A stretch of DNA of 64,000 bases from Hylemonella gracilis ATCC 19624 (GTDB lineage Bacteria > Pseudomonadota > Gammaproteobacteria > Burkholderiales > Burkholderiaceae_C). The position numbers and the translations under genes were made by a program. The DNA is taken from NCBI RefSeq assembly GCF_000211835.1, contig NZ_AEGR01000093.1, positions 1 through 64,000 on the forward strand, in the 5' to 3' direction. Below, in pieces: positions 31,909-36,988 of the stretch (position 1 is the stretch's first letter; every line of letters begins with the position of its first letter). A model generated the notes under the pieces. That model was not told the origin of the DNA. It worked only from the letters and a program-made list of their open reading frames with translations, and searched no databases.

Positions 31909-32637
31909 TCAGGGTGGGCAGGTCGTCGGCGCCTTGCCGTTGAGGGTGGGCAGAGATTGCAAGGCAGCTTGGCCCGCGGCTGCGTGGGACGCATCCGGCG
32001 CCTGCACGCGAACCCAAGCCTGACGGCGTTCGGGCCATTCCTGCACGACACGCGCGGTGCGCACGCCACGCTTTTGCATCGCTTCGAGTTCGTCCTGGGC
32101 CTTGGCCTGCGTCTCGAAGCGCGCCAACGACAACCCGGGCTGCAGCTCGGGGTTGTCCAAGGTCTGCAAGCCTCGGCGGGTGCGCGGCGAGAGCTGGGCA
32201 CGCTTGCGATCCAGCTCCGCCGTGTTGGCATAACGTCCCATGTAGATGATCCAACGCGCGGGGGCCGTGACGCGCACATCCAAGGTCCAACTCCCCGCAG
32301 AGAGCGACTGGCCGAGTTGGCGGCGCACCGCCTCCAACTGCGCGGCCTGGGTCACGTCCCACGGACCCGCCTGCCAGCACTGCGCGGTCGCGCGGGCCGA
32401 GGCTTCTTCGGCGACTTCGGGCGCCTGAGCGGCAGGAGCAGCGACTTGCGGCACGGGGGCGGGCGGGAGGGCCGGGGCGGACAGTATCCGTAAGGCCTCC
32501 GGTCGGACCTGCTGCGCGAGGCGCTCAGGTTCATGCTGTTCCGCCGGCGCCCAACCATAGGCGCGCAACAAGCCTTGCGACCAGGCGAAATAGCCAGCGT
32601 TCAGCAGTATCAGCAACAGGGCGACGACGCGCAGCAT
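31909..32637 (-). CDS. SPOR domain-containing membrane protein
   Basis: A 242-residue protein: an N-terminal membrane helix (MLRVVALLLILLNAGYFAW, residues 1-19), a proline/alanine-rich linker (about 50-85), a cysteine in QCWQAGPW, then a SPOR-like region with WIIYMGRY and SLARFETQAKAQDEL. SPOR domains bind denuded peptidoglycan at division sites. The start at 32637 places the helix at the N-terminus. It lies 51 bases after birA and probably belongs to that transcript, as often in Burkholderiales. Confidence 0.75.
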   Translation of the reverse strand: MLRVVALLLILLNAGYFAWSQGLLRAYGWAPAEQHEPERLAQQVRPEALRILSAPALPPAPVPQVAAPAAQAPEVAEEASARATAQCWQAGPWDVTQAAQLEAVRRQLGQSLSAGSWTLDVRVTAPARWIIYMGRYANTAELDRKRAQLSPRTRRGLQTLDNPELQPGLSLARFETQAKAQDELEAMQKRGVRTARVVQEWPERRQAWVRVQAPDASHAAAGQAALQSLPTLNGKAPTTCPP

Positions 32638-32688
32638 GCAAGCAAAGAAGGAAGAATACGACCGCAACCGCGGACCAGACGGCAGGAC

Positions 32689-33453
32689 TCAGTCCGCCAT
32701 GGGCCGCACGCTGACTTCGGCGGAGTCGATGGTTTTCAGGCCCGTCGAAGTATGCACCAGCAAGGCGCCGCGTTCGTCGACGCCCCGGGCCATGCCCTCC
32801 GTGCCATCACTCAGCCGTACGGCGCGGCCTGCAAAGGCGTCGCGGGCCAGCCAGGATGCGCGCACGGGCGCGAAACCCAGAGCCTGGAATCGCAGCACAG
32901 ATTGGACTAGCGGCAGGGCCAGGCGCGATAGCACGGTGGGGGCGTCCCACTCGGGGTCTATTTCGCGCGCCCAAGCCGGAGGGGTGCGCATGTCCGACGC
33001 GCCTTGGCACACGCGCTCGCTGATGTTCAGCCCCACGCCGATCACGGCGTAACGCAAGTCCAGCGCTTCGATGAGCACCCCCGCGAGCTTGCGGTCCTGC
33101 CACCACAGATCATTGGGCCACTTGAGCCGCACCTCGGGATGCAGCGCCTCGGCCAGGGACAGCCCAACGGCCAATGACAGGCCTGACCAGTCCGTGCGAT
33201 CCAAAGGCAGCCCCAAAGAGAACATCAGCAGATCGCCAGGCTGCACACCACTGTTCCAGGGCCGACCGAGCCGGCCCCGACCTGCGGTTTGGTGTTCGGC
33301 GACCAGCAGCACGGGCTCGCGCTGGCCGTCGCGAGCACGGCGCATCAGCTCGCTGTTGCTGGAGTCGACTTGCGGCAACACCTCAACCGTGAAACCGGGC
33401 AGCAGGGGAACCACCGCTTCCCAGATCGCCTCGGCGGGCCAGCGCAGCGGCAT
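32689..33453 (-). CDS. birA: Biotin--[acetyl-CoA-carboxylase] ligase
   Basis: Attaches biotin to the carboxyl carrier protein. The 254-residue enzyme has the biotinyl-AMP loop GRGRLGR (58-64, inside AGRGRLGRPW) and KWPNDLWW near 126-133. It lacks the N-terminal winged helix, so it is not a repressor (class I). The start at 33453 follows the SET gene stop by 47 bases. It is followed by the SPOR gene. Confidence 0.92.
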   Translation of the reverse strand: MPLRWPAEAIWEAVVPLLPGFTVEVLPQVDSSNSELMRRARDGQREPVLLVAEHQTAGRGRLGRPWNSGVQPGDLLMFSLGLPLDRTDWSGLSLAVGLSLAEALHPEVRLKWPNDLWWQDRKLAGVLIEALDLRYAVIGVGLNISERVCQGASDMRTPPAWAREIDPEWDAPTVLSRLALPLVQSVLRFQALGFAPVRASWLARDAFAGRAVRLSDGTEGMARGVDERGALLVHTSTGLKTIDSAEVSVRPMAD

Positions 33454-33500: not shown

Positions 33501-33980
33501 TCAGCGCTTGGGCGCCAGCAGAGTGCCTCGGCAGTTCTTGCTGCCGCACCAGCAGGGGTATTCGGCCTTGAGTTTCTTGGTGTAAGGCTCGTCGATGATC
33601 AGACCGTAGTCGTAGTTGAGTTCCTCGCCGGTCTTGATCTTGCGCAGCGCCTTGATGAAGACACGACCTTCGTCGGTTTCGTCCGCTTCGCAGTTCGGAT
33701 TGCAGGAGTGGTTGATCCAGCGCGAGGCATTGCCCCCCACCTTGGCGTCGATCACATGGTCTTCGTCGACGTGAAAGTAGAAGGTGTGATTGGGGTCCTT
33801 GGGATCGTGCGGATGACGGCGCAGCGCTTCCTTCCAGTTGATGATTTCACCCACATACTCAATGATGACTTCACCCCGGGCGATGTCCTGCAGGGCGAAC
33901 ACGCCCTTGCCGTGGACGCCGGAGCGCCGGACCTGGATACGGCGGCCGGAAGATGAGGAATCGGCGGGGAGTTTGGACAC
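33501..33980 (-). CDS. SET domain protein lysine methyltransferase
   Basis: A 159-residue protein that is almost entirely a SET domain. Visible motifs: GVHGKGVFAL (21-30), the SAM and substrate segment RWINHSCNPNCE (87-98) with the pseudoknot NHSC, NYDYG (122-126) with the catalytic tyrosine, and a compact post-SET CWCGSKNCRG (143-152) whose three cysteines, with Cys97 of the core, would hold one zinc. SAM-dependent protein lysine methylation is predicted; no target is known. The start is GTG at 33980 without a clear ribosome-binding site, and the frame stays open upstream. It is divergent from topB across 101 bases and followed by birA. Confidence 0.9.
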   Translation of the reverse strand: MSKLPADSSSSGRRIQVRRSGVHGKGVFALQDIARGEVIIEYVGEIINWKEALRRHPHDPKDPNHTFYFHVDEDHVIDAKVGGNASRWINHSCNPNCEADETDEGRVFIKALRKIKTGEELNYDYGLIIDEPYTKKLKAEYPCWCGSKNCRGTLLAPKR

Positions 33981-34013
33981 GGCGGATTTTTTTGGTAAGG
34001 TGAACTCGTATGG

Positions 34014-34064
34014 GCGCGCGCGGGCGCGCCTGCGTAGGCGTGCGCACGCGTGTGTGGGCGCGCG
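34014..34064. other. GC-rich alternating purine-pyrimidine (Z-DNA-prone) tract
   Basis: Between the SET and topB starts lies a tract dominated by GC and GT alternation. Bases 34039-34056 alternate purine and pyrimidine without interruption (18 bases), and 34014-34022 for 9. Such DNA readily forms left-handed helix under negative supercoiling, so it could tune the flanking promoters. Confidence 0.6.
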
Positions 34065-34081
34065 AGACAGGGATTGTATTC

Positions 34082-36988
34082 ATGAAGACTTTGGTCATCG
34101 CAGAGAAACCATCGGTCGCGCAAGACATCGTGCGCGCCCTCACTCCAACCTCGGGCAAGTTCGAGAAGCACGACGAGCATTTCGAGAACGAGCAGTACGT
34201 GGTCACAAGCGCCGTGGGCCACCTGGTCGAGATCCAGGCGCCTGAGCAATACGACGTGAAGCGGGGCAAGTGGAGCTTCGCCCACCTGCCCGTGATTCCG
34301 CCGCATTTCGAGCTCAAGCCGGTCGACAAGACCAAGACCCGCCTGAACGCCGTGGTCAAGCTGGCCAAGCGCAAGGACGTGGACAAGCTGATCAACGCTT
34401 GTGACGCGGGCCGCGAGGGCGAACTGATCTTTCGCCTGATCGAACAATATGCCGGCGGCGCCAAGCCGCTGGGCAAGCCCGTCTCGCGCCTGTGGCTGCA
34501 AAGCATGACACCCCAGGCCATCCGCGATGGCTTTGAGCAGTTGCGCAGCGACAAGCAGATGCTGCCCCTGGCCGACGCCGCGCGCAGTCGAAGCGAGGCC
34601 GACTGGCTGGTCGGCATCAATGGCACGCGCGCCATGACGGCCTTCAACTCGCGCGATGGGGGCTTCTTCCTCACCACCGTGGGCCGCGTGCAGACCCCCA
34701 CGCTGGCCGTGGTGGTGGAGCGCGAGGAGCAAATCCGCAAATTCATCAGCCGCGACTACTGGGAAATCCACGCCACGTTCGGGGCGCAGGCTGGCGAGTA
34801 CGCCGGCAAATGGTTCGACCCGAAATGGAAGAAGAACGAGGAAGACCCCGAGAAGAAGGCTGATCGCCTCTGGAACGAGCGCGACGCACGCGCAATCGCC
34901 GATGCCGTGCGCGGCCAGCCGGCCACCGTCACCGAGGAGAGCAAGCCCAGCACGCAGGCCTCGCCCACGCTGTTCGACCTGACCAGTCTGCAGCGCGAGG
35001 CCAATGGCAAATTCGGCTTCTCCGCCAAGACAACCTTGTCCATCGCGCAGAGCCTGTACGAGCGCCACAAGGCCTTGACCTACCCGCGGACTGACTCGCG
35101 CCACCTGCCAGAAGACTATCTCGCCGTGGCCAAGCAGACCTTCGAGATGTTGGCGGACTCGCACCTCAAGCACTTGGCACCGCATGCCGCGACGGCGCTG
35201 AAGAACGGCTACGTTAAACCCAGCAAACGCATCTTCGACAACGCCAAGGTCAGCGATCACTTCGCCATCATCCCGACGCTGCAGGCACCCAGCGGCTTGA
35301 GCGAAGCCGAACAGAAGCTCTACGACCTGGTGGCACGGCGTTTCATGGCGGTGTTCTTCCCTAGCGCGGAATACATGGTCACCACCCGCATCACGACCGC
35401 CGCCAGCCATCAATTCAAGAGCGAAGGCAAGGTACTGGTCAGGCCGGGCTGGCTGGCCATCTATGGCAAGGAAGCCGAGGACGAAACCGACGACAAGGAC
35501 AAGGACAACAGCAAGATCCTCGTCCCCGTGCAGGCCAACGAGAAGGTCAAGACCCAGGCCGCCGATGCCAAGGGCCTGAAGACCCGACCGCCGGCACGCT
35601 ACAGCGAAGCCACCCTGTTGAGCGCGATGGAAGGCGCCGGCAAGATGGTGGAGGAGGACGAGTTGCGCGAGGCCATGAGCGAGAAGGGCCTGGGCACGCC
35701 CGCCACGCGAGCCGCCATCATCGAAGGCTTGCTCAACGAAAAGTACATGCTGCGCGAGGGCCGCGAACTGATCCCGACCGCCAAGGCCTTCCAGCTGATG
35801 ACCCTGCTGCGCGGCCTGGGCGTGGAGGAGCTCTCCAAACCCGCGCTGACGGGAGAGTGGGAATACAAGTTGTCGCAGATGGAGCGCGGCCAGCTCACGC
35901 GCGAGGCCTTCATGCGCGAGATCGCGGCCATGACGGAACACATCGTCAAGAAGGCCAAGGAATACGACCGCGACACCGTGCCCGGCGACTACGCCACGCT
36001 GGCCACGCCGTGTCCAAACTGCGGCGGCGTGGTCAAGGAAAACTACCGCCGCTACGCCTGCGTGGGCAAGAAGGGCACGGGCGAGGACGCCTGCGGCTTC
36101 TCTTTCACCAAGATGCCCGCGGGCCGCGCCTTTGAACTGCCCGAGGTCGAGCAGTTCCTGCGCGACAAGCGCATTGGCCCGTTGGAAGGCTTCCGCTCCA
36201 AGGCGGGCTGGCCCTTCACCGCCGAGATCGCGCTGGCCTACAGCGAGGAAGAAAAGAACTGGAAGCTGGAATTCGACTTTGGCAACGAGGACGAGTCCGA
36301 GACGGGCGAACTGGTGGACTTCTCAGGCAAGTCATCCCTGGGCGCCTGCCCCAAGTGCGGCGGCGCGATCTACGAGCACGGCAAGAACTACGTCTGCGAA
36401 AAATCCGTGCCCACGCAGACCCAAGCCACGCCGAGCTGCGACTTCAAGAGCGGCCAGATCATCCTGCAGCAGCCCATCGAACGCGAGCAGATGATGAAAC
36501 TGCTCGCCACGGGCAAGACCGATCTGCTGGACAAATTCGTCTCCATGCGCACGCGCCGCCCCTTCAAGGCCTACCTGGCCTGGAACGCGGAAGAAGGCAA
36601 GGTGAGCTTCGAGTTCGAACCGTCGAAGTTCCCGCGCAAGGCAGGGGCCGCTGCGGGTGCGCGCGCGGGCGCCGCCGCCAAGACTGCTGCGGGCAAGACG
36701 GCGGCAAAGAAAGCGCCCGCCAAGAAAGCCGCGGCCAAGACTAAAACGGCCCGGAAGCCTGCCGCAGGTCTGACACCCAGCGCGGAACTCGCGGCGGTGA
36801 TCGGCAGCGAGCCCGTGGCTCGCACGGAAGTCATCAAGAAGATCTGGGACTACATCAAGGCCCAGGGTCTGCAGGACCCCAAGGACAAGCGCAGCGTGCT
36901 GGCGGATGCCAAGCTCCAACCCGTCTTCGGCAAGGACCGGGTGACGATGTTCGAGATCACCGGCCTGGTGGGCAAGCACCTCAGCTGA
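34082..36988 (+). CDS. topB: DNA topoisomerase III with lysine/alanine-rich linker and C-terminal SWIB domain
   Basis: Type IA topoisomerase of 968 residues; E. coli TopB is 653. The TOPRIM part begins MKTLVIAEKPSVAQDI and carries DAGREGELIF (about 109-118). The catalytic tyrosine is in TYPRTDSRHLPED (about 333-345). Two C-terminal cysteine clusters follow: CPNCGGVV...CGF near 643-675 and CPKCGGAI...CDF near 755-785. Residues about 852-896 are a basic linker rich in AAK/KKA repeats (GKTAAKKAPAKKAAAKTK), like histone H1 tails. The last ~72 residues (TPSAELAAVIG to VGKHLS) match the SWIB/MDM2 fold with WDYIKAQGLQDPKDKR. The ATG at 34082 is chosen by the diagnostic start. Confidence 0.95.
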   Translation: MKTLVIAEKPSVAQDIVRALTPTSGKFEKHDEHFENEQYVVTSAVGHLVEIQAPEQYDVKRGKWSFAHLPVIPPHFELKPVDKTKTRLNAVVKLAKRKDVDKLINACDAGREGELIFRLIEQYAGGAKPLGKPVSRLWLQSMTPQAIRDGFEQLRSDKQMLPLADAARSRSEADWLVGINGTRAMTAFNSRDGGFFLTTVGRVQTPTLAVVVEREEQIRKFISRDYWEIHATFGAQAGEYAGKWFDPKWKKNEEDPEKKADRLWNERDARAIADAVRGQPATVTEESKPSTQASPTLFDLTSLQREANGKFGFSAKTTLSIAQSLYERHKALTYPRTDSRHLPEDYLAVAKQTFEMLADSHLKHLAPHAATALKNGYVKPSKRIFDNAKVSDHFAIIPTLQAPSGLSEAEQKLYDLVARRFMAVFFPSAEYMVTTRITTAASHQFKSEGKVLVRPGWLAIYGKEAEDETDDKDKDNSKILVPVQANEKVKTQAADAKGLKTRPPARYSEATLLSAMEGAGKMVEEDELREAMSEKGLGTPATRAAIIEGLLNEKYMLREGRELIPTAKAFQLMTLLRGLGVEELSKPALTGEWEYKLSQMERGQLTREAFMREIAAMTEHIVKKAKEYDRDTVPGDYATLATPCPNCGGVVKENYRRYACVGKKGTGEDACGFSFTKMPAGRAFELPEVEQFLRDKRIGPLEGFRSKAGWPFTAEIALAYSEEEKNWKLEFDFGNEDESETGELVDFSGKSSLGACPKCGGAIYEHGKNYVCEKSVPTQTQATPSCDFKSGQIILQQPIEREQMMKLLATGKTDLLDKFVSMRTRRPFKAYLAWNAEEGKVSFEFEPSKFPRKAGAAAGARAGAAAKTAAGKTAAKKAPAKKAAAKTKTARKPAAGLTPSAELAAVIGSEPVARTEVIKKIWDYIKAQGLQDPKDKRSVLADAKLQPVFGKDRVTMFEITGLVGKHLS

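Follow-up and report, generated by a model that had tools for sequence, protein, structure and literature searches.

A conserved alternating purine–pyrimidine tract between divergent SET-domain and topoisomerase III genes in Hylemonella and its relatives: a candidate supercoiling-sensitive control region

The first 64,000 nucleotides of contig NZ_AEGR01000093.1 of Hylemonella gracilis ATCC 19624 (the whole stretch analysed, hereafter the window) carry a gene for a predicted SET-domain methyltransferase, read away from topB, the gene for a DNA topoisomerase III ending in a SWIB domain; the gap between them holds a long alternating purine–pyrimidine tract that recurs across the family (Burkholderiaceae_C) and is tentatively read here as part of a supercoiling-sensitive control region. 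A first-pass annotation of the same DNA had described a 159-residue SET protein encoded divergently from a SWIB-tailed topB across 101 bases, and coordinates and domain matches agree with it (Table 1). The SET open reading frame matches PF00856 over residues 24–126 (93 bits against a cut-off of 22.4; expect value, E, 1.6e-26), and its closest relatives by sequence among solved structures are the SET domains of KMT2A/MLL (E 9.7e-29). Catalytic and zinc residues are kept among 22 aligned SET proteins: both cysteines of NHxCxPxC are invariant, the positions of the NHxCxPN and ELxYDY motifs are invariant or at least 90% conserved, and the compact post-SET cysteine motif noted earlier is confirmed by three invariant cysteines (C-x-C-x4-C). 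The longest open reading frame of topB opens at ATG 34010, homology begins only at ATG 34082, and the resulting 968-residue protein matches the NCBIfam model PRK14724 over its full length (residues 1–968; 1912 bits, cut-off 1088), with SWIB (PF02201, E 1.7e-26) at residues 898–967 of the C-terminus; it falls short of PRK06319, the equivalog for the chlamydial-type topoisomerase I/SWI fusion (206 bits against 868).

Conservation of the pair was surveyed in 150 genomes of the family, representing 141 genera and searched for SET, SWIB and topB, with matches in 141, 148 and 144 genomes, respectively. SET and topB are divergent and within 1500 bases of each other in 124 of the 128 genomes with both places listed; the other 13 SET genomes comprise 12 without a listed topB place and one (G192) without a listed SET place. 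The earlier expectation of a conserved divergent pair is upheld within the family, where the two genes are not scattered. Four genomes depart from the arrangement: in G193, SWIB lies on a 1025-residue frame beside its SET; in G214, SET and topB each lie at the edge of separate contigs; in G287, they are on separate contigs with other neighbours; and in G166, pieces of SET occur in two places 2.1 Mb apart (L195, L196), residues 6–101 with topB and residues 33–159 (by masked bases) with birA, the result of a rearrangement, a duplication or an assembly break.

Sequence content of the gap was compared across 160 loci, namely the window, 80 family regions chosen among those with the adjacency (79 drawn evenly, plus G049) and 79 named loci from the best 80 of 570 relatives, the closest ones, with L245 lacking a topB match (its SET lies near a contig end). 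Median gap length, window included, is 127.5 bases. By an ad hoc score of our own, the tract in the window is the highest of 61 above-threshold segments in the 64 kb, and, among loci spanning 10 kb or more, the tract in the gap comes out top in 67 of the 77 from the family (the window being one of them) and in 52 of the 57 named ones; the gap strings behind the tract, motif and fold counts were off by one base, an effect that should be small, and the run-length comparison was repeated with correct strings. Independently of any score, the longest perfect alternating run lies in the gap in 63 of the 77 family loci (three more tie) and in 53 of the 57 named loci. Across the 160 loci the longest perfect run has a median of 23 bases, which falls to 7 when each locus is shuffled once by mononucleotide, and runs of at least 14 bases occur in 145 loci against 2 when shuffled. 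Among 20 whole genomes of our own picking, a perfect (RY)12 run (24 bases) is present in 14, and lies in the SET–topB gap in 10 of them, in eight of which it is the sole such run among the matches listed; it occurs only elsewhere in four (G000, G228, G269, G280) and is absent from six. The sole (RY)12 run among the matches listed in the window's own genome, at G000:C65:19544-19569, is nearly palindromic.

Alternation is retained across the loci. The tracts mix CG, TG and CA steps without simple repeats, and in 67 nearest-neighbour pairs they show 152 transitions against 29 transversions, where the flanks show 226 against 361; tract indels in the same pairs are of even length in 50 cases and odd in 8. 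A coding tract was considered, the topB frame being open through it (to ATG 34010 here, and in 82 of 154 loci), and rejected on the indels, only 11 of 58 being multiples of three; stop codons are scarce in alternating DNA, whichever frame is read. The tract is long, alternating and evolutionarily kept, as expected of a Z-DNA-type element, and stands in a putative promoter region.

Motifs on either side of the tract were counted in the 154 loci with a tract score of at least 30 (six were dropped). TGnTAnnnT occurs to its left in 117 loci, against 8 when shuffled, and ATTGTA to its right in 138, against 1; the left motif reads as an extended -10 element for topB and the right as a -10 element for SET–birA, the two facing each other. 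What the first-pass annotation called a shared divergent promoter region is more aptly seen as a pair of candidate promoters that face each other across an alternating tract.

Table 1. Features of the SET–topB locus and its neighbours in the window
Feature	Coordinates	Strand	Basis or remark
Predicted SET-domain protein-lysine methyltransferase gene	33501..33980	-	GTG start, 159 aa (amino acids); PF00856; MLL-type SET matches
topB, SWIB-tailed DNA topoisomerase III of 968 aa	34082..36988	+	PRK14724 equivalog, PF01131, Toprim
TopB Lys/Ala-rich linker, histone H1-like composition	36623..36772	+	Sequence
TopB SWIB domain	36773..36982	+	PF02201
SET–topB gap, 101 bases	33981..34081	none	
Alternating purine–pyrimidine (Z-DNA-prone) tract, 51 bases, few interruptions	34014..34064	none	Top score in window
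Candidate extended -10 of topB, TGGTAAGGT	33993..34001	+	TGnTAnnnT motif
Candidate -10 of SET–birA, TACAAT on - strand (ATTGTA on +)	34073..34078	-	Motif count
birA, biotin protein ligase	32689..33453	-	TIGR00121 and BPL domains; 47 bases downstream of SET
SPOR-domain protein gene, after birA in the same direction	31909..32667	-	PF05036, E 2.4e-5

The genes around the pair form a compact block. SET is followed by birA in the same orientation in all 80 family regions, and the two likely share an operon; gyrB was found in none of the 80. Where a region spans 15 kb or more (65 cases), birA is matched in all 65, the SPOR gene in 51, gap in 32, tkt in 32 and recA in 23, and the lytic transglycosylase gene that adjoins topB in the window was matched in none. 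Nine family genomes had no SET match, of which five were read (G206, G238, G242 and G251 were left out) and one of these, G284, was set aside, the start of its SET being cut at a contig end by eye; in the remaining four (G173, G175, G187, G222), birA and topB stay divergent. In three of these SET-less genomes (G173, G187, G222), inspection by eye of the DNA shown still finds a tract and motifs of both kinds ahead of topB, and G175 retains ATTGTAG without the tract; no tract was seen by eye at topB in G175, in G287 or in six inspected loci from outside the family (f4, f6, f8 and f10).

From the sequence comparisons, the gap may be proposed, at somewhat less than even confidence, to be a conserved bidirectional control region in which a supercoiling-sensitive tract separates the face-to-face promoters of topB and SET–birA. 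The topB promoter would lie beside the SET start and the SET–birA promoter beside the topB start, such that the tract would be the first DNA transcribed from both; negative supercoiling would flip it to Z-DNA (or a cruciform), and the flipped tract would absorb twist and hinder RNA polymerase, so that local twist would set the output of topB and of SET–birA. A more far-reaching version, in which a natural, family-wide Z-DNA switch lets twist gate a topoisomerase and the operon of a chromatin-type lysine methyltransferase that would tune DNA-binding proteins, linking topology and protein methylation in a loop, is doubtful.

Several observations weigh against this control region. The tract scores below 30 in 6 of the 160 loci and is weak or absent in G175 and G287; 10 of the 20 whole genomes, the window's own included, have no perfect 24-base run in the gap; and the sample itself favours conservation, the family regions having been chosen for adjacency and the named loci being the closest relatives. 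Dinucleotide slippage could by itself yield even-length indels, and since in-register alignment favours transitions, the substitution pattern largely restates the kept alternation. Both motifs occur jointly in only 107 of the 154 loci, a consensus scan of the gap returned no sigma-70-like site, and no good -35 element for SET was seen by eye. The tract is also able to fold as RNA. Finally, TopB is not known to act as the chief relaxing topoisomerase, which leaves the sign of any feedback ambiguous.

Peck and Wang (1985), listed among the references of PMC4770202, are said to have found that an alternating CG sequence downstream of a promoter stops the polymerase when flipped in supercoiled DNA, reportedly as an engineered insert, whereas the tract described here is natural and family-wide. 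To our knowledge, a natural, conserved regulatory job for Z-DNA in bacteria is an open question. With the tract at one intergenic place across the family, before a topoisomerase gene, a role for Z-DNA becomes directly testable with reporters, and if the proposal is true, DNA tension may control the genes that manage it. A report on the mycobacterial topI promoter (PMC4770202) describes control of a topoisomerase gene autoregulated by supercoiling; in both cases the regulatory DNA of a topoisomerase gene may sense supercoiling, and the difference is that topI relies on a suboptimal -35/-10 spacer, as opposed to an alternating tract between facing -10 motifs before a different topoisomerase. No such locus appeared by title among the matches listed for searches combining topB with SET domain, Z-DNA with topoisomerase and promoter, or alternating CG blocks, and no literature joining SET domain, topoisomerase III and Burkholderia was found, most subscription papers lying beyond the search.

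The capacity of the tract to fold suggests a reading, rather unlikely in our estimation, in which it works as RNA: the leaders of topB and SET would overlap head to head as complementary transcripts with GC hairpins that would protect the mRNAs or, by antisense pairing, tie the two genes together. The predicted folds are indeed steadier than those of dinucleotide shuffles (mean z -1.3 in the topB sense and -1.13 in the SET sense over 154 loci; 0.14 in a control of up to 60 shuffled loci), but with shuffles that preserve the purine/pyrimidine order the means shrink to -0.5 and -0.27 (112 loci; control 0.05), so that most of the folding follows from alternation, which weakens the case for RNA structure as the chief constraint. 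Alternation more than pairing appears to be constrained, favouring a Z-DNA-type element over a hairpin. A search of 33850-34200 against Rfam yielded nothing at expect values up to 5.

The idea that SET stays next to topB because it methylates TopB (or nucleoid proteins), a functional link of the kind suggested in the first-pass annotation, now appears unlikely. The divergent adjacency in 124 of 128 genomes would suit it, as would the tail or linker of TopB, which has at least 20% lysine plus arginine and at least 20% alanine in 78 of 80 family proteins (the remaining two just below), and the action of a chlamydial SET protein on Hc1/Hc2 reported in PMC7819608. Linkage is equally fixed for birA, however, and the birA–topB block is retained in four genomes without SET; the shared promoter region alone is therefore no argument for SET acting on TopB, and gene linkage alone does not show TopB methylation. 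SET-less genomes gave no contrast that would tie the tail to SET: lysine/alanine-rich tails also occur in several SET-less and outside genomes that were read, though that of G173 is arginine/alanine-rich. Nor is SWIB the reason for the pairing, because by blastp with the window's SWIB, 40 of the 80 paired family TopBs have none.

Gene order beyond the family bears on the same idea. In a survey of 150 genomes of the order, SET and topB are both listed in 34, four of which belong to the family and are all divergent. The 30 others comprise four (all f6) with adjacent, convergent genes, four with a separation of 5 to 18 kb, two (G031, G076) whose genes would, by arithmetic, be separated by about 13 kb where a circular map closes, four (G007, G038, G056, G119) at least 88 kb apart, and 16 with the genes on separate contigs, for which the arrangement is not judged; most judged arrangements outside the family thus differ from the divergent pair. 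SET does sit behind gyrB, within about 50 bases of it, in five genomes, G005, G100 and G140 of one other family (f6) and G031 and G076 of a second (f32), and topB also adjoins in three of the five, giving gyrB–SET–topB with a convergent topB in f6; the gyrB–SET loci are L204, L205, L008, L022 and L026 (f6) and L210, L019 and L029 (f32). No gyrB was seen before SET at the G119 locus (f32), and SET of G055 lies near a contig end and is not judged. At the other outside loci with named neighbours, SET stands mostly beside metabolic or unrelated genes, and several flanking frames that matched no family may not be genes. The position behind gyrB is a second hint at a tie to DNA topology.

SET itself looks like an old, vertically inherited housekeeping enzyme. 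Its between-genome distances correlate with those of topB and birA (Mantel rho 0.59 and 0.62; 0 of 200 permutations), as expected of vertical inheritance, and it is the sole SET gene detected in the Hylemonella genome searched. As to strict monophyly of the family's SET, the tree needs three label changes, at least two of them forced, mostly through long branches, counts that are inexact since one family row (L197, from G287) was labelled as outside. Within the best 80 of 570 confirmed loci, the closest named relative is from Hylemonella gracilis (95% identity), and titles are of Comamonadaceae, Burkholderiales and broader proteobacteria, with one bin titled Brevundimonas. SET probably acts inside the bacterium, with lysine-rich tails of TopB or other DNA-binding proteins as predicted substrates.

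These correlated distances would also be expected if birA, SET and topB were merely a stable, uncoupled block and the tract a mutational microsatellite drifting by slippage, to which even-length indels could likewise be ascribed. This is improbable: genes beyond the block are rarer, as the counts for gap, tkt and recA indicate, the tract is fixed between conserved motifs, it is the sole (RY)12 run among the matches listed in 8 of 20 genomes, and its mixed composition is not that of a simple repeat.

A secreted, host-directed effector is highly improbable, for although the sole NCBIfam match of SET is the Legionella AnkI/LegAS4 equivalog NF043024 (E 6.7e-13, residues 22–126) and BtSET of Burkholderia is described as a type III effector in PMC3980110 and PMC7819608, that match reaches 48 bits where 550 are required, SET sits beside birA and topB and is found in 141 of 150 family genomes, the named relatives closest to it are, judging by their titles, for the most part environmental isolates and bins, and its mean between-genome distance (0.31) is below that of birA (0.475). 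LegAS4/RomA, BtSET, NUE and other bacterial proteins treated in PMC3980110 likewise carry a SET domain with catalytic motifs; the protein here differs in having 159 residues, in matching the LegAS4 model only across its SET portion and in its family-wide birA–topB context. The presence of a chromatin-type SET enzyme, a kind described in Burkholderia as an effector, in such a block suggests an older, intrabacterial role.

The first-pass annotation described SET and SWIB domains in bacteria as noted mainly in Chlamydia, which must be corrected for this family, where both are near-ubiquitous; PMC12445093 describes SWIB as uncommon among prokaryotes other than Chlamydia. The Chlamydia trachomatis TopA described there is, like TopB, a type IA enzyme with a C-terminal SWIB after an apparently unstructured stretch; unlike it, the protein here is the TopB of Burkholderiales, in a family with SWIB in 148 of 150 genomes. 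A term search of PMC9369019, on the C-terminal domains of such topoisomerases, returned no word beginning with SWI. SWIB is present on 58 of 61 complete TopBs of the named loci. Of 200 genomes sampled from the phylum, 28 have a SET match and 15 a SWIB match; among the matches listed, a SWIB carried by a frame of roughly 970 residues or longer occurs only in the same family. SWIB on short frames is common across the order, and the window's genome has a second one on its own short frame (G000:C75:16779-16994, locus L002). In some other families, a lysine/alanine-rich, histone H1-like extension is found at one end of SET itself (L213, L208, L209, L214), and the DNA upstream of SET at L005, L006 and L009 likewise encodes such an extension.

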